NCBI GenBank assembly: GCA_028693195.1
Contig: JAQUVV010000003.1
Location: 1 to 42,282, forward strand
DNA from: Lachnospira sp.
GTDB taxonomy: Bacteria; Bacillota; Clostridia; Lachnospirales; Lachnospiraceae
Length of the DNA: 42,282 nt
Reading direction: 5' to 3'
This document shows, piece after piece, positions 11,353 to 39,042 of this stretch. How positions within the stretch are numbered: the first letter of the stretch is position 1; each line of letters begins with the position of its first letter. The notes under the pieces were generated by a model that ran no database searches, was not told the DNA's origin, and saw nothing but the letters and a program-made list of their open reading frames with translations. Both the position numbers and the translations under genes were made by a program.

Positions 11353-11546
11353 AACTAACAGATGAAAGCCCTATGCCTTTTGGAAAGTATAAAGGTGAGA
11401 AGATGGCCAATGTACCTGCATCATATCTAAAGTGGATTTATGACGAATGGACATTACCGAATCCGCGTTCTGGGTTTGTTAATAACGATGTAAAAGAATA
11501 TATTGAAGAAAATCTTGATGTTATTCAAGAGGAGATAATAGAGTAG
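11349..11546 (+). CDS. DUF3820-like protein
   Basis: 'MPFGKYKGEKMANVPASYLKWIYDEW'. Confidence 0.7.
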   Translation: MKLTDESPMPFGKYKGEKMANVPASYLKWIYDEWTLPNPRSGFVNNDVKEYIEENLDVIQEEIIE

Positions 11547-13759
11547 TGGGCATGTTTAAGCTTCGAGATTATCAGCAGGCTGCATCCGATAAGGCTGTAG
11601 CCTTTTTTATGGACAAAAAGAAAGACCATAACGCTATCATGGTTTTGCCTACAGGATGCCATGCAAAAGGTTCTAAAATCCTAATGTATGACGGTTCAAT
11701 CAAGTATGTTGAAGATGTAAAAGTCGGAGATGAACTTGTTGGCGATGATGGTAGTAAACGCACAGTATTGGAACTTCATAGAGGGGTAGATAAGCTTTAT
11801 GAGATTACACCAATAAAAGGTGAGTCATTTATCGTAAATGGAGGTCACATACTTTCTTTGTATAAAACGAATGAGGGTAAGAACTTCCCATCATGTATGC
11901 CGAGGGTTGACGAAATTTCCGTAGATGAATATCTTAAAACAAGCAACAATTACAAACATCTTCATAAGTTAAGAAAACCGGAATTTGTAGATTTCGGCAA
12001 CGAAACAAAGTCTGTGATTGAGCCTTATTTCCTTGGTCTTTATCTTGGTGACGGTTGTTCTGTTAATGGTATTGATATAACCTCTCAACGGAAAGAAGTG
12101 GAGGGTTTTCTATATTCTTTCGCTGCAAGGTATGGTATGAAAGTAAGAAAAGCCACAAAGAAAAATAATTTAGCTTCTACTTACAGCCTTTCAAATATTA
12201 AAGTCAGCCGTTCAAATCCTAACCCAATTATAGTATTCTTGGACGAATTGGGGCTTACAGGATTGACTTCTGCGTTCAAATTCATACCAACTCATTATAA
12301 GACGGCTTCAAAATGCGATAGATTAGAATTGCTTGCAGGATTGCTTGATACAGATTCCTATTACGATAACAACAAAAACACCTATGAATATTGCACCAAA
12401 TCAGAGCAACTGGCAGATGATATAATATTCTTATGTCGTTCTCTTGGTCTTTTCTGCGGAAATAAAACATGGAAAATAGTAAATGGTGAAACGTATTATC
12501 GTATGTCGATAACTGGAGAACTTGACATGATACCTACCAAAGTTAAAATCAGAAAAGGAAAGCCACGTTTACAAAAGAAAAATGTTCTTGTAACAGGATT
12601 TACAGTAAAATACTTAGGACGTGGTAATTATTATGGCTTTACGATTGATGGTAATCATTTATACTGCGATGGTCAATTTTTCATACACCATAACAGCGGA
12701 AAGAGCCTTATTATAGCAGATATAGCTTCTAGGCTTAAAGGTCACACTTTAGTATTTCAGCCGTCACGTGAAATTCTGGAGCAGAACTACAAAAAGCTAT
12801 GTTCTTATGGAATACTAGACTGCTCTATTTATTCAGCTTCTTTTAACTCTAAGCAAATAAATAGAATAACATTTGCCACGATAGGAAGCGTTAAAAGTAA
12901 ACCTGACCTGTTTACTCATTTTGAAGCTATAATCATAGATGAATGCCATTTAGTCAACCCTAAAGATGGAATGTATAAAACATTCCTAGAAACAGTTACA
13001 TGCAAGGTATTAGGGCTTACAGCCACTCCTTATCGTTTAAGTTCATCACAAGGATTTGGTTCAATGTTGAAGTTTATCACCCGCACCCGTCCGGCCATCT
13101 TCAAAGAGGTGATTTATCAGGTGCAAATATCTACCCTTTTGGATATGGGGTATCTCTCAAAACTGAACTATTATCCGATGAATCCGATTGGATGGAACGA
13201 ACTCAATTTAAAGGTGAATACTACCGGTGCCGATTATACGGACAAATCAGTACAAAAAGAGTATGAACGAATAGACTTCTATAGCTATCTTGTTCATATT
13301 GTCCAGAGACTGATGAATCCTAAAACAGGAGGAAAACGGAAAGGCATATTGGTATTTACTCGGTTTCTGAAAGAAGCGGAGCGATTAACGTGGTCCATAC
13401 CTGGTTGTGCTATCGTCTCAGGAGATACCCCTAAGGGTGAACGTGAAAGAATTTTGGAGGCGTTCAAATCAGGTGAAATACAGGTAGTGGCGAATGTCGG
13501 TGTATTGGTTTGCGGATTCGATTACCCAGAGCTAGACACAATTGTTATTGCACGTCCTACCATGTCATTAGCACTATATTACCAAATAGTAGGCAGAGCC
13601 ATTAGGCCACATCCGGACAAGAAAGAAGGCTGGATAGTTGATTTGGCCGGAAACATAAATAGATTTGGGAAAGTAGGAGATTTGAAGTTGGTAGATGGTG
13701 GTAATGGAAAATGGGCTGTTTACTCTAGGGGCAGACAGTTAACTAATATAAGATTTTAA
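11546..13759 (+). CDS. DEAD/DEAH-box (SF2) helicase interrupted by an intein
   Basis: Walker A split PTG^SGKS, 'IIIDECH', 'LGLTATPYR', 'QIVGRAIRP'. GTG start. Confidence 0.93.
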   Translation: MGMFKLRDYQQAASDKAVAFFMDKKKDHNAIMVLPTGCHAKGSKILMYDGSIKYVEDVKVGDELVGDDGSKRTVLELHRGVDKLYEITPIKGESFIVNGGHILSLYKTNEGKNFPSCMPRVDEISVDEYLKTSNNYKHLHKLRKPEFVDFGNETKSVIEPYFLGLYLGDGCSVNGIDITSQRKEVEGFLYSFAARYGMKVRKATKKNNLASTYSLSNIKVSRSNPNPIIVFLDELGLTGLTSAFKFIPTHYKTASKCDRLELLAGLLDTDSYYDNNKNTYEYCTKSEQLADDIIFLCRSLGLFCGNKTWKIVNGETYYRMSITGELDMIPTKVKIRKGKPRLQKKNVLVTGFTVKYLGRGNYYGFTIDGNHLYCDGQFFIHHNSGKSLIIADIASRLKGHTLVFQPSREILEQNYKKLCSYGILDCSIYSASFNSKQINRITFATIGSVKSKPDLFTHFEAIIIDECHLVNPKDGMYKTFLETVTCKVLGLTATPYRLSSSQGFGSMLKFITRTRPAIFKEVIYQVQISTLLDMGYLSKLNYYPMNPIGWNELNLKVNTTGADYTDKSVQKEYERIDFYSYLVHIVQRLMNPKTGGKRKGILVFTRFLKEAERLTWSIPGCAIVSGDTPKGERERILEAFKSGEIQVVANVGVLVCGFDYPELDTIVIARPTMSLALYYQIVGRAIRPHPDKKEGWIVDLAGNINRFGKVGDLKLVDGGNGKWAVYSRGRQLTNIRF
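11657..12694 (+). mobile_element. In-frame intein (346 aa) with LAGLIDADG-type homing endonuclease, in helicase Walker A
   Basis: N-terminal Cys38 (CHAKGSKILMYDGS), 'LGLYLGDG' and 'LAGLLDTDS', C-terminal HHN followed by Ser. Confidence 0.95.
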
Positions 13760-13907
13760 GATAAATGATTATAGCTGTTTGAATAAATGAAATTATGATT
13801 ATGGATTATCAAAAACAAATAAAGATACTATACGGGAGAAGAAAAGCATTAAAAAAGCCATACTTTGATAATATACAGAAAGAAAATAATGAAAATCCTT
13901 TTTGATT

Positions 13908-14804
13908 ATGGCAAGACCAACGAAACAAGGTCTTGAATACTTTTCATTTGATACGGATTTTTTTTCAGATGTGAAAATTCGAAGAATATCAAGGGCATGT
14001 GGCCCAGCTTCGACTTCTATACTAATCTGCCTGCTGTGTAATATCTACAGAGATAAGGGGTATTATATTTCGTGGGATGAGAATTTACCTTTTGTAGTGG
14101 CTGACACTGTTGGTACTACCGAGGGTGCTGTAGAAGAAGTGGTAAAGAAAGCTATACAGGTAGGATTCTTCGACAAAGAACTGTTTGATAAATACCAAAT
14201 CCTTACTTCAAACGGTATTCAAAACCGATTTAAAAGTGCAGTTACAAGACGTCAGGAAATTGAATATGTAGTAGATTATTTAGTTTCTGAACGCAAAAAT
14301 GAAGTTATTGCATACAAAAACGAAGTTATTGATGACAGAAGTACACAAAGTAAAGTAAAAGTAAAGAGAAAGAATAATATATCCCCCTCACCCCCTTTAA
14401 AAGGGGGATGTCGAATAAAAAAAAGCGATCCTAAGAAAATAAATTCTAAAGCTCGCTTTCTTTTTGAGGAACATTTTAAAAGTGTTTTTTCCGATACTTA
14501 CTACTGGACGGCTAAAGATGCCGGTGCAATGTCTCAATTACTTAAGAAACTTACATTCTCACGTGAGCAAAAGAACTTGCCCGTGGATGATGATTCTGTT
14601 TTGTACGCGCTTGAATACTTCCTTTCCCAAATCAAAGAGGGGTGGATATTTGAAAATTTCAGCGTAACTAATATCAATTCAAAGTTTAACGAAATCGTCT
14701 CGCAGGCTAAAAAGTCTCATTCTGCCAAGCCTGATGTCGGCATTGTCCTTAGAGACAATTCGGTTGACAAATATTCAAATGATGATGAAAAATGGAAACG
14801 ATAA
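13908..14804 (+). CDS. DUF4373 (Lin1244/Lin1753-like) replication-associated protein
   Basis: 'GLEYFSFDTDFFSDVKIRRISRACGPASTSILICLLCNIYRDKGYYI' resembles DUF4373. Confidence 0.75.
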   Translation: MARPTKQGLEYFSFDTDFFSDVKIRRISRACGPASTSILICLLCNIYRDKGYYISWDENLPFVVADTVGTTEGAVEEVVKKAIQVGFFDKELFDKYQILTSNGIQNRFKSAVTRRQEIEYVVDYLVSERKNEVIAYKNEVIDDRSTQSKVKVKRKNNISPSPPLKGGCRIKKSDPKKINSKARFLFEEHFKSVFSDTYYWTAKDAGAMSQLLKKLTFSREQKNLPVDDDSVLYALEYFLSQIKEGWIFENFSVTNINSKFNEIVSQAKKSHSAKPDVGIVLRDNSVDKYSNDDEKWKR

Positions 14805-15373
14805 ATTTTCAGCAAACATTAGAAAGTTTAAAGGATACAGGCTTTAATCCCGTACCCAATCTGGTGAATATCGGAGTTCCTAATGCAAAAAATAATCTTT
14901 GGCGTGGTATAAGCTATTTCTGCAAACAACCTGTATGGTTGTCTGAATACGATCAAATAGTAGCATGGCTTACGTCAAATGATGGGCGAGGGTTATTCTG
15001 TTACGGAAACTGTGGACTTGGCAAAACGCTAATTTGTGGGAAAGTGATTCCTGTACTTCTCAATTACTATTGTCACAAGATAGTTTCATGTTATGACGCC
15101 CAGCAAATGAATGCTAATCTTGACACTGTTAAGTCAAGGCATATCATTTACATTGATGACATTGGTACAGAAAACCTATCAGTGAAGTATGGAGAGAAAA
15201 GACTGGCTTTCTCTGAAATAGTGGATGAAGCGGAGAAGAGAGGTAAATTGCTTATTGCTACAACAAATCTTTCTTTAAACGAAATTAGTGAGAAGTATGG
15301 AGAACGTACTATGGATAGACTTGTAGCCATAACTAAGCGAGTTAATTTCATCGGTAAAAGTCTTCGAAAATGA
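14792..15373 (+). CDS. DnaC/IstB-like helicase-loader ATPase
   Basis: Walker A 'CYGNCGLGKTL', Walker B 'IIYIDDIGTE', 'LLIATTNLS'. Confidence 0.8.
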   Translation: METINFQQTLESLKDTGFNPVPNLVNIGVPNAKNNLWRGISYFCKQPVWLSEYDQIVAWLTSNDGRGLFCYGNCGLGKTLICGKVIPVLLNYYCHKIVSCYDAQQMNANLDTVKSRHIIYIDDIGTENLSVKYGEKRLAFSEIVDEAEKRGKLLIATTNLSLNEISEKYGERTMDRLVAITKRVNFIGKSLRK

Positions 15374-15564
15374 GAGTTACTATTTATTGGGGAAGAGAAA
15401 CACAACCAATCATCCGAAAGAAAATAAGAGAGAGATTCAATATCTCGGACTACTTGTCTGTGAATGGTGAAACTCCAGCAGATATACGAGAGGAAGATCT
15501 TCCGCTACTGAGAGAAACAGAGAAAAGAGGGTTTATTCAAATAAGAAATAAGCCTGAGAAATAG
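15370..15564 (+). CDS. Small hypothetical protein
   Basis: 64-aa ORF overlapping the previous stop by 4 nt. Confidence 0.55.
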   Translation: MRVTIYWGRETQPIIRKKIRERFNISDYLSVNGETPADIREEDLPLLRETEKRGFIQIRNKPEK

Positions 15565-15646
15565 TTGAAGTAAACCTTAAAACCAGCCACAGTAAAACAG
15601 AATATAAATCTTATCCGGTAACGGATAGCATAAAAAGAAGATAGCT

Positions 15647-15919
15647 ATGAAAGCAGAAGAATTAATAACGAAGAATTTATTAGGTATGCAAAATCTACCT
15701 GATATGTTGAAACCGGACGGAACAGTTCAAAAAGTAGTGTTTAAAGAGATTGCATTAGCAGCCGTCAAAATGGCACGCATTGAAGCCACTGAGACAACAA
15801 TCGAAGAGTTTACTCGTTTTGTAGATACGTATTGCAGGGGAGCCGGCCATCGTGAAATCTCTAAAGACGCTGAATATTATATCAAGGCATTCAAAAAACA
15901 ATTAAAAGTGAAGCAATGA
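15647..15919 (+). CDS. Hypothetical phage protein
   Basis: 90-aa ORF in operon. Confidence 0.55.
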   Translation: MKAEELITKNLLGMQNLPDMLKPDGTVQKVVFKEIALAAVKMARIEATETTIEEFTRFVDTYCRGAGHREISKDAEYYIKAFKKQLKVKQ

Positions 15920-16065
15920 AAGAGATTATTCAGAGATGGAAGTATATGTTGGCGATTGGATGAATAAAAAAACGAAGTGAACTGCATGGTTATTGCTATG
16001 ATTTGTGCTAATTCAAAAAAAAACAGTAATTCTGGACGGTGTATAATAGTAAAAATTATAAAGAT

Positions 16066-16824
16066 ATGAAACGTTATTATTTTACAGAAGTTTTATTTTC
16101 TCTAGTGATACTAGGAATTACTATTTGCGGATGTGACAATAAATCAAAAAAAACATCCGACGTTGACATTGCAGGCAACATGGGAATGTATGTTGCCACA
16201 TTGCCTTGTGCTGACTGCCCTGGCATCTTTACCCACCTTACACTGAATGCCGACAGCACTGCTTATCTGACCACGTTGTATATGGATTCTGACAACACGT
16301 CTGAAACAATAGATGGTAGGTGGATCTTTACAGATAGCATCTTTACTGTTAAGGCATCAAACGGTGAAGTTACAATGTACAAACTGTTATCTGAAAATCA
16401 ACTGGTACAGGTAGGCGAAACTAAAGAAGTGAAGAAAGAGTATATTCTTACCAAAGAAGCTGAGATGTTAGCCGATAGTTTTGTAGGAACTTACAGTTTC
16501 GGTTCAGACGAAAAAGGTGCTTACAGGCAAACACTCAAGATTGCCAAAGTAGACGACAGGCATGTAGAAGTTGCTATCACTAAAACAGGCGGCAAAGCCA
16601 AAGGGTGTGAATTCAAGGCGCAAGGTTATATCGTAAACAACCAGATCGAGGTCAACCTAAAAGATGTGAACCCTGATATGAAATCAGTAATGACCATTTG
16701 CCCGCTTAACAGTGGGGATGGCCTGAATGTCTTTACTTCTAAGTTTGATGATCGTTACGATCTGATGTTTTTCTGTGGTGGCGGTGGTAGCTTGGCAGGA
16801 GACTATATTAAAGAGAACCACTAG
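16066..16824 (+). CDS. NlpE-like lipoprotein
   Basis: Lipobox 'GITICGC' then NlpE-like 'MYVATLPCADCPGIFTHLTLNADSTAYL'. Start refined to internal ATG. Confidence 0.75.
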   Translation: MKRYYFTEVLFSLVILGITICGCDNKSKKTSDVDIAGNMGMYVATLPCADCPGIFTHLTLNADSTAYLTTLYMDSDNTSETIDGRWIFTDSIFTVKASNGEVTMYKLLSENQLVQVGETKEVKKEYILTKEAEMLADSFVGTYSFGSDEKGAYRQTLKIAKVDDRHVEVAITKTGGKAKGCEFKAQGYIVNNQIEVNLKDVNPDMKSVMTICPLNSGDGLNVFTSKFDDRYDLMFFCGGGGSLAGDYIKENH

Positions 16825-16879
16825 CTGAATTATCAGTTGTGATTTGCCTACAGCCGCTGGCTGGATAGGCTATAAAGGT

Positions 16880-16912
16880 AGAGTTCCTTACATACAATGA
16901 GGAACTCTTTTT
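16880..16912 (+). terminator. Rho-independent terminator after the lipoprotein gene
   Basis: AGAGTTCCT...AGGAACTCT + TTTTT. Confidence 0.85.
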
Positions 16913-17053
16913 GTATATAGGCGCTATCTGTTTTGCAATGGTGTGGGGTAGGGTATTGGTGAAAAGAATAATAGATTCAGGAGAGAGGATAGATATGTAA
17001 AATAAAAAGGGAACACCATCCGCACGACCAGATTAGTATTCCCATACACGATT

Positions 17054-17530
17054 ATGATACAAATATACTATTTATTTTTTATAAATCGTGCTATGGTGAA
17101 AGATTTTTCTACTATTTCGGAGCTAAAAACTATTCGTGAACAAAAGTCAAGACTTTCAGAACGTGAAAGTGAATTATCAATCCCTATATTGGAAGATTTA
17201 GGGCTTATCCCAGAACTTTATAAATGGTTTGCAGATATACTTGCAGGTATGGATTTCCCACCCAGTTTAGAGAGCGTTACGCAGCGAAAGAAGTTCTTAT
17301 TTATTATTCTCTTTCTATACTGCCCAAGTGTACTAGCAGGTGGTAGAATGCCCAACGGAGTGAGAAAGGCTTTAGAGGATGTTTTTTCTAATATTAGTCC
17401 AAGTCGAATATCGCACAATATCGAAGATGTTACCTTTTCATATCAAATATACAAGGACTTTCGTAAAGATGTTGACTATCTTTACACAGAAGTTATAAAT
17501 CGACTTAGAGTCAAAGAGCTAATCAAATGA
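17054..17530 (+). CDS. Hypothetical phage protein
   Basis: 158-aa ORF with CGATTATG start context. Confidence 0.6.
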   Translation: MIQIYYLFFINRAMVKDFSTISELKTIREQKSRLSERESELSIPILEDLGLIPELYKWFADILAGMDFPPSLESVTQRKKFLFIILFLYCPSVLAGGRMPNGVRKALEDVFSNISPSRISHNIEDVTFSYQIYKDFRKDVDYLYTEVINRLRVKELIK

Positions 17531-17581
17531 ACGTGCTACAATAGCACAACAATAAAGCCGGGAGAGGCTATTCGATTTATG

Positions 17582-18277
17582 TTATTCTTTATTTCTATTA
17601 ATAATAACATTCATAAGCCCTACAATTTCATTTACTTTTGCTCCATCTGCCTCAAGAGGGATTTTTAATATCGGTTCTGATAAGCTATTTATATTAATAA
17701 TAACAGTATAGTCATGTATAACTTTGTCATTCTCTTGTTTAACGCTGGTCTCTTTTCTCGCAGTAGCTCCACCTACAACAGCACCGACACCACCAGTTAA
17801 GACGCCTCCAATAATTGCACGCTTAGCCATATTGCCTGTGCTTGTTTTAGTTTCATAAGAAACACTGCCTTTTTCAATGCGTTGGTTATCGTTGAAACTG
17901 CAACTTAATACATCGCTCATTGGCAAATCTTTTCCTAAAAGCCAGATGCGATTTACTTTTCCAAAGACAATTATTTCTTTCTGAAGATTAAGTTCTTCAA
18001 AAATGATAGTTTTGTCTGGCTCCCCATATTTGGATATAAGATCGTTGCGAGAAGTGTTGTAAATAGAGATTTTAGCTTCTTTTTCAGCCATTTTCCTTAT
18101 AACTGCTTTTTCTCTTATCTGCTTTCTGTTTTCTTGTTTCTTTTGATTCTCATCGTATGCCCATATAAGAGCAATTCCAACGGCAACGAAAAATACTACT
18201 AAAATCCATCCTAATATAGTCCATCCTGACATGAAAGATATGATACATAGAAATATAAGAAAAAGAACCCATCCCAT
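17582..18277 (-). CDS. Membrane protein with glycine-zipper-like segment
   Basis: N-terminal TM segments and 'AIIGGVLTGGVGAVVGGATA'. Confidence 0.65.
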   Translation of the reverse strand: MGWVLFLIFLCIISFMSGWTILGWILVVFFVAVGIALIWAYDENQKKQENRKQIREKAVIRKMAEKEAKISIYNTSRNDLISKYGEPDKTIIFEELNLQKEIIVFGKVNRIWLLGKDLPMSDVLSCSFNDNQRIEKGSVSYETKTSTGNMAKRAIIGGVLTGGVGAVVGGATARKETSVKQENDKVIHDYTVIININSLSEPILKIPLEADGAKVNEIVGLMNVIINRNKE

Positions 18278-18373
18278 GATCGTATGTTTTTAAAGGTTAA
18301 ACGACACACAAATATATATACTATTTTAACCACTCAATTGTTTTTAAGCAATTTTTTAAGTCAGAACGTGATT

Positions 18374-18628
18374 TTATTCTCCTTTCTCTATTTTTATTTT
18401 CTTGCCACAATGAGGACACGTTATTGTGTCTGAATTTCTTTTGAATAGATCAGGAATTTCCACATCTAGAGCATCCGCTATATCAGCAAGTCTATCAATA
18501 CTAAACTTATTTCTTGCAATAGCCTGTGAAAATGAAACAGCCTGTATGCCGAGTCTGTCAGCAAGTTGAGCTTGTGTAACACCTTTCTCTTTACAAAGCT
18601 CTTTAATTCTTAATTCTGTATTTACCAT
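18374..18628 (-). CDS. XRE-type HTH regulator with C-terminal CxxC motif
   Basis: 'ELCKEKGVTQAQLADRLGIQAVSFSQAIARNKFSIDRLADIADALDV...CPHCGKKIKIE'. Confidence 0.8.
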   Translation of the reverse strand: MVNTELRIKELCKEKGVTQAQLADRLGIQAVSFSQAIARNKFSIDRLADIADALDVEIPDLFKRNSDTITCPHCGKKIKIEKGE

Positions 18629-18657
18629 ACTCCATCTATTTTTTGCAAATATATATA

Positions 18658-18756
18658 ATTTAGCTTATGTGCGAAATAATGTATGATAAAACATTTATTT
18701 ATGCTATGTTTTTGTAGATGAGTGTGGATTTAGCGTTTGTGTTATGAAATAATCTA
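18658..18756. repeat. Two imperfect direct repeats in a divergent promoter region
   Basis: ATTTAGCTTATGTGCGAAATAATGTA (18658-18683) and ATTTAGCGTTTGTGTTATGAAATAATCTA (18728-18756). Confidence 0.5.
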
Positions 18757-18861
18757 AAATATATCATTTGTGCTATATAAATTTATTATAGTTTAGTTTT
18801 TATGCTTATATTTGTGGTGTCAAAATCAAACTAATTAATAGCTAATTAAACATATACTATT

Positions 18862-19503
18862 ATGAATACATACGTAAAATATGTGCCAAACGTGTTTTTG
18901 GCAAAGTGCGAAGAAAAGCATGAAAAGGGTGAAGTCATTGACGTAACAACAAAATACGGCAAAGAAAATGAGAGCATAGTCTTTAATCTCATGTTTGAGA
19001 AAGATGGTTTTTACTACTACTCAATAGTTCGTGCAGACGGTTTCAATGTACAAGAATGGGCAAAGCAACGAGCAGAGCGCAGACTTGAATGGGCAGCTTC
19101 AGCAGAAAGAAAAAGTGAAGAGTACTTTAATGCTTCAAACAAGCATGCTGATTTTCTTTCGTTGGGTGAACCTATTAAAATCGGGCACCATAGCGAAAGA
19201 CGTCACAGAAGGATCATAGAAGAGGCTCATAATAACATGGGTAAATGCGTAGAATTTAGTAACAAAGCAGAAAAATATGAGAGTAAAGCTGAATATTGGG
19301 CAAGAAGGGCTAACACAATAAACCTGTCTATGCCTGAAAGTATCGAATACTATGAGCATAAATTAGAGGTTGCAAAAGAACGGCATGAGGGGTTAAAATC
19401 AGGCAAATACCCACGTGAACACGCTTATTCTTTGACTTACGCTAAGAAAGGCGTAAACGAAGCTCAAAAGAACTTCGATCTAGCTAAGAAATTGTGGGCG
19501 TAA
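18862..19503 (+). CDS. DUF3560-like protein
   Basis: 'RKSEEYFNASNKHADFLSLGEPIKIGHHSERRHRRIIEEAHNNMGKCVE' resembles DUF3560. Confidence 0.75.
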   Translation: MNTYVKYVPNVFLAKCEEKHEKGEVIDVTTKYGKENESIVFNLMFEKDGFYYYSIVRADGFNVQEWAKQRAERRLEWAASAERKSEEYFNASNKHADFLSLGEPIKIGHHSERRHRRIIEEAHNNMGKCVEFSNKAEKYESKAEYWARRANTINLSMPESIEYYEHKLEVAKERHEGLKSGKYPREHAYSLTYAKKGVNEAQKNFDLAKKLWA

Positions 19504-19518
19504 TGTAATAATAACAAT

Positions 19519-19548
19519 TCATGGCATATCAAAGTTGGTATGTCATGA
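19519..19548 (+). other. Intergenic hairpin, 12-bp stem
   Basis: TCATGGCATATC-AAAGTT-GGTATGTCATGA; no T run. Confidence 0.55.
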
Positions 19549-19644
19549 AAATCATCTAAATAGCGAACAATTGGCAAAAGGTGCGCTATGCACGTTTTAA
19601 TAATTAGCCCTTGGGCTTGGTATGTAGTATCTTTGAGGTACTAT

Positions 19645-19717
19645 CGCGGGGTAGAGCAGTGGTCAGCTCGCTACTTTGACTTGGTAGAGGTCGGTGATTC
19701 GAATTCATCCCCCGCAA
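19645..19717 (+). tRNA. tRNA-Val-like (anticodon GAC)
   Basis: D arm GAGC-AGTGGTCA-GCTC, anticodon arm CTACT-TTGACTT-GGTAG, T arm GGTGA-TTCGAAT-TCATC, acceptor (C)GCGGGG/CCCCGC(A) with 1:72 C-A mismatch. Confidence 0.75.
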
Positions 19718-19747
19718 CTATTAAATTATAGACTAAATATCACGATT

Positions 19748-20113
19748 ATGGAAATATTGACCCTCTCAATAAAACAGAAGTTTTTTGATGAGATTTTAGC
19801 AGGCACCAAGAAGCAAGAGTTTAGAGAGATTAGGCCTAATTCTCAATCTAAATATTGTGAGCTTGATGAAGACGGCTATGTGAAAGAGATTGAAGGCGTT
19901 TTGCAACCTCGCAAATATGATGCTATTAAATTCTTAACAGGCGAATATAAGGGCAAAAGACCTTTTATTGTCGTAGAGGTCAAAGACGCTAAAATAGAAC
20001 TCTTTGAAGATGAGAATCATGAATTAGTAACCTATACCTATCAAGGTGAGCAGTATATAGCCGCTCAGGTGGTTTATGATCTAGGTGAGGTCTTAGAGAG
20101 ACATATAGATTGA
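19748..20113 (+). CDS. ASCH-domain-like protein
   Basis: 'MEILTLSIKQKFFDEILAGTKKQEFREI...YDAIKFLTGEYKGKRPFIVVEVKD'. Confidence 0.75.
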   Translation: MEILTLSIKQKFFDEILAGTKKQEFREIRPNSQSKYCELDEDGYVKEIEGVLQPRKYDAIKFLTGEYKGKRPFIVVEVKDAKIELFEDENHELVTYTYQGEQYIAAQVVYDLGEVLERHID

Positions 20114-20145
20114 TTGTTTAATTAAAATTGATTTGCTGAGTTAGA

Positions 20146-20283
20146 ATTAAAGTAGGTACAAGCGCAACGTCAAATAAAGGCGTTGTTGGTCGCAGAAGTT
20201 TTACTGGTGGTAACGGCCAGTTTATGAACCGTAGACAGAAATACGGTGAAGTTCGTAGGGGATTAGGTTTATCCGGAGGTTAG
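20146..20283 (+). CDS. Possible small basic protein with non-ATG start, not in the ORF track
   Basis: Frame reads IKVGTSATSNKGVVGRRSFTGGNGQFMNRRQKYGEVRRGLGLSGG*; stop overlaps the next start. Confidence 0.35.
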   Translation: MKVGTSATSNKGVVGRRSFTGGNGQFMNRRQKYGEVRRGLGLSGG

Positions 20284-20957
20284 TGTCTATGCTAATCGAG
20301 GATACATATCGCAGCATTGACCGAATTCGTGAAAAGACGAGTTCGGCTTTGCTGTTTTTATCTTTTGGTAAGGATAGTCTTGTTTTACTAGATCTCATCT
20401 ACCCGAAGTTTGACAGGATTGTATGTGTCTTCATGTATTTTGTCCCCGAACTGGGGCATATTGAACGCTGGATAAAGTGGACGAAAGCAAAGTACCCGAA
20501 AATAGAGCTCGTCCAAATACCGCATTGGAATTTAACCTACATACTTAAATCAGGCATGTACTGTGTTCCTAATCCCAAAGTAAAGCTATTGAAGCTTGCT
20601 GATGTAGTTAAATCCATGAAACTGAAATACGGTATTGATTATGTCTTTTTAGGTATGAAGAAAGCTGATTCCATGAATAGACGTTTGATGTTGAACAGAA
20701 TGGGTTTTCCGTATGAGAAAAACGGGATTGTTTACTCTCTGGCTGACTGGACGCAAAAGGATATTCTTGCTTATATGAAGCAAAAAGGACTACCTGAGCC
20801 TGTAAGGTATTCCAAGAATGCCAGTGGCGGGGTTGGCTTTAATCCCGAATGCTTTTTATGGTTAGAAAAGAACTACCCTGAAGATCTTGAGAAGATTTAC
20901 GGGGTATTTCCTATGAGTAGAAGAATATTATTTGAGCACTATAATGGAACTAAGTAA
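20283..20957 (+). CDS. PAPS reductase-like protein
   Basis: 'SALLFLSFGKDSLVLLDLIYPKFDRIVCVFMYFVPEL' PP-loop motif SFGKDS. Confidence 0.75.
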   Translation: MSMLIEDTYRSIDRIREKTSSALLFLSFGKDSLVLLDLIYPKFDRIVCVFMYFVPELGHIERWIKWTKAKYPKIELVQIPHWNLTYILKSGMYCVPNPKVKLLKLADVVKSMKLKYGIDYVFLGMKKADSMNRRLMLNRMGFPYEKNGIVYSLADWTQKDILAYMKQKGLPEPVRYSKNASGGVGFNPECFLWLEKNYPEDLEKIYGVFPMSRRILFEHYNGTK

Positions 20958-21684
20958 GTATATAACATCGGAATCGGTAGAGCTTAAACGCTCTGTGATT
21001 CATCTAGCAGGGTATAATCCCCGTAAAATATCCGAAGAAGCGAAGAAAACGCTTAAACGAGGGATAAAGAAATTCGGGCTTGTAGGCGGTTTGGTCGTAA
21101 ACAAGCGTACAGGTATGACACTTGTATCGGGGCACCAGCGTTTATCCGTTATGGATGAGCTGAATAAGTATCCGGATAATGATTATCTAATTCGCGTTGA
21201 GCTTATTGATGTTGACGAAAAACGGGAAAAGGAACTAAACATCTTAACGAATAATCCAAATGCTATGGGCTCATGGGATTATGACGCTTTACGTGAGCTT
21301 ATTCCCGATATAGATTGGAAAGATGCCGGACTGACAGATGTAGATTTGAATCTCATCGGCTGTGACTTCTTACTCCAGACAGAAGAGGAAAGCTCACTCG
21401 CTGATGCACTAAGTGATATGATGGCACCTGTTACCGAACAGAAAGAAGCCGAGAAAGTTGCTAAGCAATTGGAAAAGGCGGAAAAGGTCGCTCACATGAA
21501 AGAAGTTAAAGAACAGGTAAAGCAGTCAGCACAAGAAAAAGCAAACGATATGGATGCCTATCTGATGTTATCCTTTTCTTCCTATGAGGAGAAAGCTGCT
21601 TTCTGTGAAAGGTTTGGATTTGACCCCAACGAGAAGTTTATAGTAGGTTCAGTATTTGATGAAATGATAGAAAGGATAGATTGA
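20932..21684 (+). CDS. ParB-like nuclease domain protein
   Basis: 'AGYNPRKISEEAKKTLKRGIKKFGLVGGLVVNKRTGMTLVSGHQRL'. Likely start at internal ATG 20944. Confidence 0.75.
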   Translation: MSTIMELSKYITSESVELKRSVIHLAGYNPRKISEEAKKTLKRGIKKFGLVGGLVVNKRTGMTLVSGHQRLSVMDELNKYPDNDYLIRVELIDVDEKREKELNILTNNPNAMGSWDYDALRELIPDIDWKDAGLTDVDLNLIGCDFLLQTEEESSLADALSDMMAPVTEQKEAEKVAKQLEKAEKVAHMKEVKEQVKQSAQEKANDMDAYLMLSFSSYEEKAAFCERFGFDPNEKFIVGSVFDEMIERID

Positions 21685-22220
21685 TTATGGCAAGAAGTGA
21701 ATCTAAAGATACAGCAAAGAGCAATAAGGGAAGAAAACCCAAATTTGATTACACAGGAGAAGAGTTCCTTTCCTCTGTGGAATCATTTGCAAAGAAAGGA
21801 TTCACGGATAAAGAGATTGCTTATGCTTTGGGTATAGCTCCGCAAAGATTTTGTGAGAAGAAGAGTTTGCACCCGGAATTACGTGAAGTCTTAGCGCGCG
21901 GGCGGGCGACAATTAACGCAGCGGTAAGGGCAAAATTCCTTGCAATGGCTATTGGTGGTATTAAGACAAAGAGTGTTACTAAGCGTAAACTGAAAGATAT
22001 TAATGGGGATTATACGGGCGATGAAGAAATCCAGAGTGTAGAAAGTGAGCTGGCTCCAAGTCTTCAGGCTATGTCGGTCTGGTTATACCATCATGACGAA
22101 GAGTGGAGAAAGATTGAACGAAAGCAGGATGAAGATGCCAGCGATATTCCTACAGATATAAAGCAAGGCGTTGATATTGATTCTTGGATTAAGGAGCAGG
22201 TGAAAGGAGACGGAAAATGA
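21681..22220 (+). CDS. Terminase small subunit-like protein
   Basis: HTH-like 'FAKKGFTDKEIAYALGIAPQRF' immediately upstream of the large terminase. Confidence 0.6.
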   Translation: MIMARSESKDTAKSNKGRKPKFDYTGEEFLSSVESFAKKGFTDKEIAYALGIAPQRFCEKKSLHPELREVLARGRATINAAVRAKFLAMAIGGIKTKSVTKRKLKDINGDYTGDEEIQSVESELAPSLQAMSVWLYHHDEEWRKIERKQDEDASDIPTDIKQGVDIDSWIKEQVKGDGK

Positions 22221-24511
22221 TTACCCCACAGGCAATTTACCATCCGTTATACAATGACAAGGAGAAGTTTATAATTCTTATTACCGGTGGTCGTGGGTGC
22301 GAGACTCCTACGCAAGAAATCATAATGTCTGATTTGACAATAAAGCAAATCAAGGATATTAAAGTTGGAGATTGTGTCATGGGTGACGATGGAACACCTC
22401 GCAATGTTCTTGCTACTATAAAAGGAAGAAGTGAAATGTTCCGTGTCAGACAAACAAGTGCAGAAGATTACCTTGTAAATGATGCGCATATCCTTAGTTT
22501 AAAGAAAAGCCAAGCATCTATAAACCAAGGGAGATACAATGAATTTAAAGAATACACAGATATGCGTGTTACTGACTATTTAAATCGCAGCAATCGTTTC
22601 AAGGAGCACTTTAGAGGGTACAAGGCAAATTCAATTCCTTATGAGGAGAGATTAGTTGAATTAGATCCATATTTGCTCGGCTTATGGTTGGGTGACGGTA
22701 CAAGCATATTTCCGCAAATAACAACACCGGATGTTGAGATTGAACAATACCTTAGAGAGTATGTAGAAAATCACAATCTACATCTTTCAATCAACGGAGT
22801 AAAAGGTAAAGCAAAGACATTCCGACTTGCTAAAAACGGAGGACTGACGAATCCTATCATGGAAATTCTTCGCCATTATGATTTGATTGGGAATAAACAT
22901 ATTCCACAAGAATACATATCAAATAGCGAAAAAGTACGTCTTGAATTACTTGCAGGGCTGCTTGATACCGATGGAACAATGTCTTTTAATGGGTACGAAA
23001 TTACGCAAAAGAGTGAAAAACTTGCAAGGCAAATAAAGTATGTTGCAGATACTCTTGGCTTCAGAACAAGCATCAACGAGAGGAATGCGCGTTGTAACGT
23101 GAAAGATTGTGGTAAGGTTTTTCGTGTACATATCAATGGTGATACATGGAAAATACCTTGTAAGGTGAAAAGGAAAATTGTGAATAAGACTGATGTTCAC
23201 AAGAATAAAGATTGGCATTTATCACAATTAACGATAGAATATGCAGGAATTGGAGATTGGTGTGGTATTTATCTTGACGGGAACCAACGCTATTTGCATT
23301 CTGATGGAACAGTCACGCATAATTCAGGCAAATCATTCAATGCATCTACCTTTATCGAGCGTCTGACATTTGAAATGACTCCTGCCGAGAAGATAGTTCA
23401 TCAGATTCTTTATACCCGTTACACAATGGTTTCCGCTCACATGTCTATCATCCCCGAAATGATGGAGAAGATAGAGCTGGATGGAACAACGAAATATTTT
23501 AAGACTACCAAGACGGATATAGTCAACAGAATGACTAACAGCCGTATCATGTTTCGGGGTATCAAAACCTCATCAGGGAATCAGACGGCAAAGCTGAAAT
23601 CCATTCAAGGCATAACGACTTTTGTCTGTGATGAAGCGGAGGAGTGGACTAATGAGGAGGAATTTGATAAGATCATGCTCTCCATTCGTAAGAAGGGTAT
23701 TCAGAACCGGATTATCATCATAATGAACCCTTGTGATTCCAATCACTTCATCTATAAAAAATACATTGAGAAAACTCATAAACAGGTAGAAATTGACGGT
23801 GTTCAGGTGCAAATCTCCACTCATCCAAACGTATTACACATTCACACCACTTACCTTGATAATATGGAGAATCTTTCTCCTGAGTTCTTGAAAGAGGTTC
23901 AGGATATGAAGGTGAGCAACCCCGAAAAGTACGCCCATGTGGTTATCGGTCGTTGGGCAGATGTTGCCGCGGGTGCTGTGTTCAAGAAGTGGGGTATTGT
24001 TGATGAATTTCCACCTTATGCGAAAAAGGTTGCTATAGGTCAGGACTTCGGTTATACGCACGATCCGTCGGCTTCCATTCGTTGCGGTATCGTTGACAAT
24101 GCTTTGTATCTGGATGAAGTTGACTATCGAACTGGATTATTGTCTTCTGACATTATTAAAACGCTCCGTCCGTGGGGATTGAAAGTATATGCAGATAGTG
24201 CCGATCCCCGGCTGATTCAGGAAATACACAACGGTGGTATTACCATCTATGCAACGGAGAAAGGTGCCGGATCAATCAATGCCGGTATTGACAAAATGCA
24301 AAGCATGGAGATATTTATCACTAAGAGGTCTTATAATCTGATAAGAGAGTTTAGAAACTATGTATGGGCAAAGGACAAAGACGGGAACTATATCAATGAG
24401 CCGGAGGATCACGATAACCACGGGATCGACGCTGCCCGATATTATTGTTTGTGTGCCCTCTTAGGTAAGATTCAGAAGCCTAAAGATTTAACAGGAATAT
24501 TCACACATTAA
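22217..24511 (+). CDS. terL: Terminase large subunit interrupted by an intein
   Basis: Walker A split GGRG^SGKS, 'FVCDEAEEW', 'ALYLDEVDYRTG'. Confidence 0.9.
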   Translation: MITPQAIYHPLYNDKEKFIILITGGRGCETPTQEIIMSDLTIKQIKDIKVGDCVMGDDGTPRNVLATIKGRSEMFRVRQTSAEDYLVNDAHILSLKKSQASINQGRYNEFKEYTDMRVTDYLNRSNRFKEHFRGYKANSIPYEERLVELDPYLLGLWLGDGTSIFPQITTPDVEIEQYLREYVENHNLHLSINGVKGKAKTFRLAKNGGLTNPIMEILRHYDLIGNKHIPQEYISNSEKVRLELLAGLLDTDGTMSFNGYEITQKSEKLARQIKYVADTLGFRTSINERNARCNVKDCGKVFRVHINGDTWKIPCKVKRKIVNKTDVHKNKDWHLSQLTIEYAGIGDWCGIYLDGNQRYLHSDGTVTHNSGKSFNASTFIERLTFEMTPAEKIVHQILYTRYTMVSAHMSIIPEMMEKIELDGTTKYFKTTKTDIVNRMTNSRIMFRGIKTSSGNQTAKLKSIQGITTFVCDEAEEWTNEEEFDKIMLSIRKKGIQNRIIIIMNPCDSNHFIYKKYIEKTHKQVEIDGVQVQISTHPNVLHIHTTYLDNMENLSPEFLKEVQDMKVSNPEKYAHVVIGRWADVAAGAVFKKWGIVDEFPPYAKKVAIGQDFGYTHDPSASIRCGIVDNALYLDEVDYRTGLLSSDIIKTLRPWGLKVYADSADPRLIQEIHNGGITIYATEKGAGSINAGIDKMQSMEIFITKRSYNLIREFRNYVWAKDKDGNYINEPEDHDNHGIDAARYYCLCALLGKIQKPKDLTGIFTH
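22298..23323 (+). mobile_element. In-frame intein (342 aa) with LAGLIDADG-type homing endonuclease, in TerL Walker A
   Basis: N-terminal Cys28 (CETPTQEIIMSD), 'LGLWLGDG', 'LAGLLDTDG', C-terminal THN followed by Ser. Confidence 0.95.
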
Positions 24512-33644: not shown

Positions 33645-36600
33645 ATGCCTAAATTATACTTTCGTGTAGAATCAGACTGGGAAAAAGTTCTAAGACTTCG
33701 TGAAGAGATTATTAAGTTAGAATCTCAATTAAAGTCGATGGATGCCAATAAAGCACCTGCGGCTGTGGCAACGTTAAACAGACAGATTAACGAGGCTCAA
33801 TCACAACTCAAGGGAATGGTCAGCGAGGCTGCAAAAACGGCTGTAATGATGGATGGAGATTTTAAAAGTAAGATATATAAAGGCTCTCAGGCTGTTAATG
33901 ATTTCACGCAAAAAATAATCAGCCAGAAAGCAGTAGTCAAGGATGTAGAGGCTGATGTAAGACGGCTTACCGATGCTTATCGTTCCGTCCGTATGAATCC
34001 TTTGAAGGGGAACAATGCGCTAGGTGAACTAAACGCAGCTAAACGAGTACTCAACGAAGAGAGAGCGGCTCTATTCGACCTTACTCAGCAACAAGCAAAC
34101 GCTCGTTTATCGGTGAAAAAGCTCAAGGACGAATACGCATTATACAATACAGAAATAAAGGATAGCACATCCTCTACATTCTCACTAGGAAAAGCATTGG
34201 GCATTATCGGTGGGATAGCGACTCTTAGACAACTAGGCTCACAAATACTAGATGTTCGCAGTCAGTTCCGTTCTGCAGAAGTATCACTAGAGACAATGGT
34301 AGGCGAAGAGCAAGCTAAAAAACTCTTATCTAAGAATAAACAGTATGCCAAAATATCTTCTTTGGAGTTCATGGATATACAATCCTCAACCGAGATGATG
34401 ATAGGCTTTAATATTGAAGCTGAGAAAGTGCCTAGATACATAGAGGCTATTGGGGATATATCAAGGGGAAACAGCCAGAAATTTCAGTCTCTTTCGTTGG
34501 CCTTTAGTCAGATGTCGGCAGCGGGTAAGCTTATGGGGCAGGACTTGAATCAGATGATTAATGCCGGTTTCAACCCGCTACAATTTATAGCAGAGAAGAC
34601 GGGCAAAACAATTGCGCAACTCAAAGATGAGATGTCAAAAGGTGCTATCTCCGCAGAGATGGTACAGCAAGCATTTATCGATGCCACAAGTGCAGGAGGG
34701 AAGTTTTATGGCATGTCACAGAAGCAAAGTGAAGAGGTAGCCGGACAGATGTCTATCCTTTCAGATACAATCTCAAACAAATTGAATGAGATTGGAGAAA
34801 GCAATGAAGGGCTTATAAAAGCAGGAATCAAGGGAGCTACTGCTTTAGTCAATAACTATGAAGAGATTGGTAAAGCTATCACTATTCTGATAACAACTTA
34901 TGGCACGTATAAAACCGCTCTGGTGTTGAGTACCCTATTGGAAGAGGGAGGTAGCAAGGCGTTATGGGGTAAGATAGCAGCTACGAAGGCAGCTACAGTC
35001 GCACAGGCCACTTACAACAAGGTTTTATTAATGAATCCTTATGTGGCCGTTACGGCTGGGGTAGTAGCTCTAGGAGTAGCTTTATATACCTTGAGCGATT
35101 CAACAAGCGCACAAGAAAAGGAATACAAAAAACTGATAGACAGACAAGAAAAATATGATAAATATTTAGAAAACGAGAAAAGAAGGATAGATGATTTATT
35201 GTCAATTTTACAAGACGAGCTATCTACCAGAGAAGCCAAACTTAAAGCCTTTAACGAACTTCAAAAAATATCTCCATCTGTTTTTGGCACGTATGAAACA
35301 GAGAAGCAACTTGTAGATAACTTAACAGAAGCGAGGAAAAAAGAGAACGAACAACTTCTTATAAAGCAAAAAATGACGACCTCATATAATCAGATCAATG
35401 ATATAAATAGTCTGAAAGGTCTTAAAAGATTGCAAGAATTAGAGCGTGTTGGTGAAGCTGGCAGGATAAGGCAGGGTACGCAGGCTGAATATCAGTCGCT
35501 GTATCAGCAATTCAATGTAAGAAGAGACAAAGGGGCATTTGAAACTGATGCAGAGGTGATAAAAGGTAAAATCAGGGCTATCACATCCATAATTGGAGCT
35601 GATCAAGAAAAGATGCGTCAATCTCAACAAATAGCATGGGCTTTATCACTGGAAGGAATGACTAAAGAGTCTGCAAAGGCCTATCTGAAAATGTACGAAG
35701 GGTATAGGATAATATTAAGAGATTCAGGTAAGGAATGGCTTCAGATACAAGGTGAAGAGGCACCATTAACAGATAAAATGTTAGTAAGTAGAATCCAATC
35801 TCTTAATGATAAAATTATAAATATCGAGGAGAAATCAGCCAAAGATTATATCAATGAAGCTAAGTCTGCATGGGATAAGGCCAAAAAAGATGTAGAGGAT
35901 ATAAAAACATCCGCTAAAACATATACATCAGCAGATCAGTATGAGAAAGAGCTTAAAAAGGCAGATGATGCAGAAAAGGCAGCAAAAGAACGGTATGAAA
36001 AACTAGGCGGCAGTACTACTAAGAAAGAGACTGAATCCGAGAAGCTAAGGAAAGAGACCGAAAAGTATAACGTTCTCCTCACTAAGCAAGCCTTAGAGGA
36101 AAAACGAAGAGCCGAAGACTTACAAATGTCAGTTGTAGAAGATCGTATTAAAGCAATGGATGAAGGCTCAAAAAAAACAATCGCTCAAATGGAATACAAC
36201 TTCGAAAAGGAGATGCAAACCATTGACAGAGAAAAAGAGGATGCTCTAAGAAGGAAGATAGAAGATGCGCGCTCTGCTTTTGAATCCAATCCTAAGAATA
36301 AAGGCAAATCTTTTGATTCATCAGGCATCACTTTATCCGATAAAGATATTGAGATGTACGACAGTCGTTATAAGTCAGCCATATTGAGTTTTGAGAAAGA
36401 ACAGGCTGCTTTCAAGCAGAGATCAAAAGATTCATGGAATAACTATTTAAAAGAATGGGGTACAGTGATGGAGAAAAGGAAAGCTATCACTGAATCTTAT
36501 TCTGATAAAATTGCTAAAGCGGAAACAGAGGGGGAAAAGGAATCTCTTAAAAAGCAGATGCAAGAAGAACTGTCTAATATAGACCTTAGCGAGTTGAAGC

Positions 36601-38540
36601 AGTCTATCAATTGGGAGGCTATATTCGGGAACTTATCTGCTTTGACTAAGAAGCAACTTCAAGATGTAAAGAAGCAACTGGTTGCTTTTAAAAACAGTCC
36701 TGAATTCAAAAAGAATGAATCTCCAGAAAATGTGAAGATCATAGAAGAGGCTATTAATAACCTTAATACGGCTATTGCCGACAAAGGCGGCTTATTTGGT
36801 GGAATTGAATCCTCATTAATGGAATACAAGAGGGCTGTAGACAGTGTTACCGAAGCTCAAAAGAAGCTAGAGGAAGCTCTAAAGTCTGGCGATGATGCAG
36901 CGATTGAAAAGGCGAAAAAAGACTTGAATAACGCTAAGAACTCACAAGTTAACGCACAGGGTAACGTAAATAAGTCACAAGATAAGGCTATTGATAACAT
37001 TACCTCAATCACTAATGCCATATCTCAACTAGGGGAAGCCGATGTATCATTGACTAGTTTTGGTAATACAGTAGGTACGCTGGTAGATGCGCTAAGTGAA
37101 TCAGGTAGTCAGGTAGGCGGGATCATTTCTGCTCTTATCGCTGTTATGGATCAGATCGGGCAGAAAGGTTTGGGTAATTTCGTAGGAGATATATTTGACG
37201 CTAGTTGGCACTCAACGGGTGGAATTTTAGATACCGTCGGAGAAATATTCGGAATAAAAGGAGCCGGAGGATTCTTCAAAGGTGCGGACTATTCCAGTTA
37301 TAACGAGATGGTTGCTCAATATGATAGGTTGAACGATATATGGGATGAACTTATTGATAGCAAGAAAGAGTATATCGAAATGTCATACGGTGAAGAAGCG
37401 TACAAGGCGAGCAAAGAAGCCGAGGAGTTGATCAATAAAAGCATTGCAAGCTATCGTACTCTAGGTGTCGAAAGGCTTAATTCAGGTGCTAGTACAGGCT
37501 CTCATAGTATTGGTGTAAGACAAAGGAAAAGAATGTCTTCATCTGATTGGGAAGAAGCGCAAAAAGCATTAGGTTCTGCTTACGATAAAGCGACAGAAGG
37601 GCGAATGGTAGGGCTGTTTGATTTATCAGTAGAACAACTAGAGAAACTAAAGTCAGAAGCTCCGACTTTCTGGGCTAAACTAGATGATGATGTACGTGGG
37701 TATCTGAATAGTATTATTGAAGGTCAGGAACGTATTGAAGAGATACAGGAAACACTTAAAGAGTCAGTTACAGGTATTTCTTTTGATTCCTTTTTTGATG
37801 GAATACTGGATTCACTGTACGATGTTGAAACTACATACGAGGATATAGCCGATAATATGTCTGAGTATATAAGAAAATCTCTCATTAAGGCATTCGTTAT
37901 TGAAAACTACAAAGATGATATAAGGAAGTGGTACGATATGTGGGCTCAGTCGCTTGAAGACAATACTATTTCCTCAGACGAAAGAAAAGCCCTTGATGAT
38001 TTAAAGAGTAGTATTATAACCGGTGCCGTAGAATCAGCCAAGCTGATAAACGATCAATTTGATACAGCTGCTTCATCTCAAAAAAACACATCTAAAGGTT
38101 TCAACACGATGGATCAGGATACTGGGAATGAACTTAAGGGTCGTTTCACTGCTTTACAGATTTCAGGTGAAGAAAGTAAAACTCAACTAGTCCAACAAAC
38201 GGCTTTACTTGCTTCAATTAATGAGAAAATGTCTCTGCTCAATTACATGAAAGGTGAAGCGATTTTGTCTACTCCAAGTGCTCCTGATATTGCAGATCAG
38301 AACAGAGCTGTTATCTCAAACAGTTATCAGCCACATATAAACATCAACTTTCCTACCGATAAGATCGATTCGTTAGCGTCTGATGTTTTTGCTATGAAAG
38401 GAATAATTGACGAGATGCGTACTTTGCAAGTTGAGCATATTCCGGATATTGCAGGTAATATTTCAAGAGTAGTGAAAAACTCGCCTAAAATAAACGATAA
38501 ATTAGACAATATAAATGATAACATTAAAAAAGCATTATAG
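33645..38540 (+). CDS. Tape measure protein
   Basis: 1631 aa; '[29 protein letters not shown]' tape-measure-like N-terminal region. Confidence 0.92.
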   Translation: [1631 protein letters not shown]

Positions 38541-38542
38541 CT

Positions 38543-38959
38543 ATGAGAGGAGAGTTAATAATAAACGGTAAAGATGCTTTCGATACATGGGGCGTTAATA
38601 TGGGTAGTGGTTTTCTGAATAATATTTTAACACCTCCACCTGTGAAAGATTATATAGAAAATAAAAGCAGGTTGGAAAATGGAAAGAGGGTTATTCTGAA
38701 TAATAAAAAATATGACGAAAGGGAATTCAATCTTATTTTTACCATAAAAGGTTCAAGCCCAAGTGATTACATATTAAAATTCAAAGCTTTTATGTCTGAA
38801 ATGTCTTCTGGCTTGGTATCTATTAATATTCCATCTATCGGAAATGAGATTTACCGCGTTTACTATAAGAATTCCACATCGTTTGCTTTTAGCTTTGATC
38901 GTACTTTTTCTAAGATAGCCATGAAAGTTTGTGAACCTAATCCGGCAAACAGAGAATAA
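38543..38959 (+). CDS. Distal tail-like protein
   Basis: 138 aa, between tape measure and tail tip gene. Confidence 0.5.
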   Translation: MRGELIINGKDAFDTWGVNMGSGFLNNILTPPPVKDYIENKSRLENGKRVILNNKKYDEREFNLIFTIKGSSPSDYILKFKAFMSEMSSGLVSINIPSIGNEIYRVYYKNSTSFAFSFDRTFSKIAMKVCEPNPANRE

Positions 38960-38983
38960 ATAACGCACCTTTCCTACATTGTT
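38957..38983 (+). repeat. Intergenic repeat copy 2
   Basis: TAAATAACGCACCTTTCC-TACATTGTT; compare 28322-28348. Confidence 0.5.
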
Positions 38984-38989
38984 CGTTTT

Positions 38990-39021
38990 GGAAGTCCATA
39001 GAAATTGGGCTTCCTTTTTTT
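38990..39021 (+). terminator. Rho-independent terminator
   Basis: GGAAGTCC...GGGCTTCC + T7. Confidence 0.75.
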
Positions 39022-39042
39022 ATCTCCGAACTTTGGTGTGTT

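Follow-up and report, generated by a model that had tools for sequence, protein, structure and literature searches.

Two related inteins at the same P-loop position in a helicase and a terminase of one phage

A single phage of a gut bacterium carries an intein at the same Walker A position in two unrelated ATPase genes, one for a RadD-like SF2 helicase and one for the large terminase subunit. The two inteins very probably reflect two acquisitions of related P-loop-targeting intein lineages, one for each gene.

Intein anatomy and empty alleles

The interrupted genes lie in the window, by which we mean the whole 42,282-nt stretch of DNA that was analysed. Their features, in window coordinates, are as follows.

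11546..13759, + strand: RadD-like SF2 helicase gene with intein; 737-aa precursor, 391-aa extein
11546..11656, + strand: helicase N-extein, final residues VLPTG; identical boundary in BS-TP2
11657..12694, + strand: helicase intein, 346 aa, Cys1...His-Asn, site PTG^SGKS (from the sequence and an AlphaFold model)
12035..12058, + strand: helicase intein LAGLIDADG motif 1, LGLYLGDG, at about intein residues 127-134 (sequence reading, alignment)
12323..12358, + strand: helicase intein LAGLIDADG motif 2, LELLAGLLDTDS, at about residues 223-234; Ser replaces the final Gly
12695..13759, + strand: helicase C-extein, first residues SGKS
22217..24511, + strand: terminase large subunit gene with intein; 764-aa precursor, 422-aa extein
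22217..22297, + strand: terminase N-extein, final residues TGGRG; identical boundary in BS-TP2
22298..23323, + strand: terminase intein, 342 aa, Cys1...His-Asn, site GGRG^SGKS (from the sequence and a PDB match)
22676..22699, + strand: terminase intein LAGLIDADG motif 1, LGLWLGDG, at about intein residues 127-134 (sequence reading, alignment)
22940..22975, + strand: terminase intein LAGLIDADG motif 2, LELLAGLLDTDG, at about residues 215-226
23324..24511, + strand: terminase C-extein, first residues SGKS

The preliminary description of this DNA had proposed two Walker A inteins of 346 and 342 aa, each with a Cys start, His-Asn before Ser, and LAGLIDADG motifs; we find these sites, lengths and residues as described. 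In each gene the extein and intein share a single open frame, with junctions VLPTG^C...HHN^SGKS in the helicase and TGGRG^C...THN^SGKS in the terminase, and the splice residues are C1, H345-N346 and Ser+1 in the former and C1, H341-N342 and Ser+1 in the latter. Both inteins score above the Pfam cut-offs for LAGLIDADG_3 and Hom_end, and the Hom_end_hint scores are 62.0 bits (helicase) and 57.9 bits (terminase) versus a cut-off of 32.1. Alignment indicates that both retain the acidic residues of the two LAGLIDADG motifs. Motif 2 of the terminase intein keeps LLDTDG; that of the helicase intein ends DTDS rather than DTDG, a change that could weaken the endonuclease. When the PDB was searched with the AlphaFold model of the helicase intein (pLDDT 79.5), PI-SceI ranked first (E 2.9e-23), ahead of TliVMA, Prp8 inteins and I-DmoI; phmmer also matches this intein to PI-SceI by sequence. 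The model of the terminase intein is less confident (pLDDT 67.9), and its sequence matches PI-SceI in the PDB with an E-value of 1e-12 (phmmer). Judged by these sequence features, the two segments are complete class-1-type inteins with LAGLIDADG endonucleases.

The host proteins are assigned from their exteins, which match the Pfam domains ResIII/Helicase_C in one case and Terminase_3/Terminase_3C in the other. RadD is the nearest NCBIfam model for the helicase, with a score well below that model's cut-off; since the protein is of the RadD/SF2 type, assigning it to replication is only a guess.

Bacteroides phage BS-TP2 (PQ571275, host B. salyersiae) has the same gene order around both loci, and neither its helicase (390 aa) nor its terminase (422 aa) is interrupted at the same codon positions. 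The C-exteins of the window and BS-TP2 are 84% identical in the helicase and 92% identical in the terminase. When each intein is removed in silico, the alignment of the window to BS-TP2 continues in frame across the joint in both genes and shows no base duplication. These uninterrupted alleles and clean in-frame joints indicate that the segments are insertions, rather than parts present at this site in all homologues, which the preliminary description had named as the observation that would count against inteins. The terminase sites of two gut phage scaffolds, MT838676 and MT835636, are also empty. We looked in the flanks for signs of co-conversion; the SGKS codons of the window terminase differ synonymously from those of BS-TP2 at all four positions, and match neither BS-TP2, pYD38-A nor ST44.

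Relationship between the two inteins

The sequence motifs that the two inteins had been said to have in common are real: BLASTP aligns the inteins over their full lengths with 32% amino acid identity (E 6e-45), which excludes a chance likeness. At the DNA level, by contrast, they show no similarity beyond short chance words. We sampled relatives from annotated phage records, from one scan of genome contigs and from genome searches; nearer relatives may lie beyond this sampling. Intein relatives were found in 640 and 722 phage records; P-loop inteins are common in helicases and likewise in terminases (hundreds of phage records). The best matches to the helicase intein in annotated phage records are the helicase inteins of phiHSIC (41.9%) and YX3973 (41.6%). 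For the terminase intein, the best phage-record matches include both terminase inteins (pYD38-A, 38.1%) and helicase inteins, and the genome-contig scan yielded six bacterial DnaB P-loop inteins that are closer to it than the phage matches (39-42%). Among 195 relative genomes searched with Hom_end_hint, only the genome of the window has a match above the family cut-off, and we saw no terminase inteins in host relatives, where terminase frames span 316-443 aa.

Junctions among the relatives fall at two Walker A positions, G^SGK[ST] and GK^T. The helicase inteins of phiHSIC, YX3973 and PJ16 and the terminase inteins of pYD38-A and ST44 have the G^SGK position found in the window, whereas the helicase inteins of SETP3, JD001 and related phages, and the DnaB inteins, have the GK^T position. 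We built one tree of 22 rows and a second with DnaB inteins added, so covering phage and cellular P-loop inteins. The helicase intein forms a clade with those of phiHSIC, YX3973 and PJ16 (support 100/98, also 100/99), around which the 22-row tree places an 11-row phage-helicase clade (95/93), while the terminase intein groups with its counterparts in the pYD38-A and ST44 terminases (85/87). Addition of the DnaB inteins preserves the split into two clades, one of helicase inteins (99/95) and one of terminase and DnaB inteins (91/86). Forcing the two window inteins to be sisters costs 54.7 and 56.9 log-likelihood units in the two trees, and the AU test rejects this arrangement (p-AU 9.9e-10 for the 22 rows, 2.3e-4 with DnaB added). 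The splicing domain alone gives the same tree pattern; the endonuclease part by itself gives poor resolution. A tree in which all G^SGK inteins form one clade, whatever the gene, was also rejected (p 7e-4). Within its own clade the terminase intein is placed weakly (support 81-91%), so its source could have been either another terminase or a DnaB gene. P-loop inteins of terminases, SF2 helicases and DnaB interleave in the tree; judging from this pattern, inteins must have moved from P-loop to P-loop among different ATPases on the time scale of the family as a whole.

Origin and retention of the pair

We propose that the helicase intein came from a lineage that occupies PTG^SGK in phage helicases, and that the terminase intein came from a lineage common to other phage terminases and bacterial DnaB P-loop inteins. 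Each endonuclease would cut the intein-free allele of its own gene, such that the intein would be copied in during co-infection. The identical position would then reflect the family's preference for conserved P-loops, and not copying within a genome. Each intein would be translated within an inactive precursor, from which its Cys1, last Asn and Ser+1 predict self-excision; the first serine of the loop (G-S-G-K-S) would serve as the +1 nucleophile, and joining of the exteins would yield an intact G-x-x-G-S-G-K-S loop.

The preliminary description had suggested instead that one intein may have reached the second gene by ectopic homing. Within this phage lineage, such copying would have run between the similar P-loop DNA sequences of the two genes. 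The inteins are indeed homologous, at 32% identity, and occupy an equal loop position, and the two BS-TP2 genes are identical in the first 11 bases past the insertion point, AGCGGAAAGTC. Those 11 matching bases are largely forced by the peptide SGKS, which both proteins have, and the two sites differ in their upstream halves. Moreover, closer relatives of each intein occur in other phages or bacteria (42-43% versus 32%), the inteins have no DNA similarity to each other, and their sisterhood is rejected by the AU test. We therefore regard copying within this phage as extremely improbable; equal position and common motifs are no evidence of recent copying from gene to gene.

A different question is why the pair persists, and here the preliminary description had also raised a shared post-translational control point. 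Neither ATPase should work while its P-loop is unspliced, and splicing could thus be a joint control point that times replication or repair together with packaging, for which both inteins have been retained. The P-loop intein of Mycobacterium smegmatis DnaB can be stress-responsive, and P-loop inteins have been proposed as stress sensors in mycobacterial DnaB (PMC6195587). Nonetheless, the two inteins have no recent origin in common, BS-TP2 is closely related yet has neither, the closest sampled relatives (phiHSIC, YX3973, PJ16, pYD38-A and ST44) carry one such intein each, and homing accounts for persistence without regulation, all of which makes retention for joint control very unlikely. The narrower idea that the pair is kept while splicing of both answers the same host condition, leaving the helicase and the packaging motor active together, is extremely improbable; if it were true, a joint splicing response would switch on both at once. 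It is also highly improbable that one or both inteins have decayed, with poor splicing or dead endonucleases. The DTDS of helicase intein motif 2 would fit decay, as would block F of the terminase intein (DGNQRY) and its less confident model, but the frames are open, and Cys1, His-Asn, Ser+1 and the acidic residues of both LAGLIDADG motifs are intact. The corresponding block F residue also varies in DnaB inteins (S, R, N, H).

Two separate acquisitions would make this a clean two-site P-loop invasion, in which two lineages of one family occupy an equivalent point of the loop in two unrelated ATPases. The cultured relative BS-TP2, being empty at both sites, is a natural double-empty partner; between them, the two phages offer one phage system in which homing specificity, cross-cleavage and the costs or benefits of carrying P-loop inteins could be measured.

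Phage context and comparison with known inteins

The phage may be a prophage, as the preliminary description called it: the contig is phage throughout the part that was read and encodes a CI-like S24 repressor, but a search of it for tyrosine-integrase domains gave none. A gene for an NlpE-domain lipoprotein-like product (16039-16824), possibly cargo, separates the replication part of the phage from the packaging part. Candidate mobile DNA was seen in a gut phage scaffold and in BS-TP2. In the scaffold, MT838892.1 (2757-4745; record marked UNVERIFIED), an insert of ~1.8 kb orphans the helicase start, a 54-aa fragment with PTGSGKS. Within the insert are HTH and WYL_2 genes, a NUMOD4-HNH endonuclease and a divergent helicase start (PTGAGKS) that replaces the old one and is fused to the old helicase 3' part, whose identity to BS-TP2 is 99.3%. 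It looks as though a free-standing endonuclease cassette has hit the P-loop region used by the intein, unless the scaffold is misassembled. A similar set (NUMOD4-HNH, SH3/DUF2693 and a regulator) lies downstream of the portal gene in BS-TP2 (35510-37241), and this recurrence suggests that the set is a mobile cassette.

The intein family itself is known, and inteins in TerL and other genes have been reported from gut phages (PMC7886860); a limited literature search found no paper describing this intein pair. Among helicase inteins, those of Listonella phiHSIC, Klebsiella YX3973 and Escherichia PJ16 are in the same gene type, have Hom_end_hint and LAGLIDADG domains, are 39-42% identical to the one in the window and occupy the same G^SGK site (CGK in phiHSIC). 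These three phages, like SETP3 and JD001, infect proteobacteria, and the inteins of SETP3 and JD001 lie three residues further on, at the K/T junction. Vibrio phage PS65A.1 apparently has two inteins in its helicase gene (frame from 1375), namely a GK^T P-loop intein and, downstream and adjoining a DEAH-like motif, a second Hint-like segment (CFPAGTLITM...VVHNC).

The terminase inteins of Vibrio pYD38-A and Salmonella ST44, at GGRG^SGKT, have the same function and insertion point as that of the window, although the likeness is distant (38% identity) and each record has one such intein. The top identities to the terminase intein (39-42%) are instead those of DnaB P-loop inteins from Saprospiraceae, Cytophagales and Sulfurospirillum, which differ in belonging to cellular genomes and in their DnaB insertion sites, GMGK^T or AMGK^T. 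Besides the P-loop intein, DnaB of Saprospiraceae and Sulfurovaceae has a second intein-like segment after DLRE. Mycobacteriophage inteins TerL1-a and TerL1-b are also inserted in the terminase Walker A motif; five mycobacteriophage terminase inteins spliced efficiently, and TerL1-b and TerL1-c cut solely their own empty target (PMC5050341). The terminase intein of mycobacteriophage Contagion is a distant relative (30% identity) that starts with Ala. PI-SceI, the yeast VMA1 intein, is the best PDB match by sequence and, for the helicase intein model, by fold, but it is in a eukaryotic host gene and is ~20% identical over the fold alignment. The precedent for a two-intein phage is Vibrio phage 489E54-1 (OX241561), which has inteins in the P-loops of both its terminase (1-2865, Ala-start) and its helicase (36886-39654, Cys-start). 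It differs in that both sites are GK^T and the terminase intein is of a distant Ala-start type; the main interest of the present phage is a two-site case with a double-empty partner.
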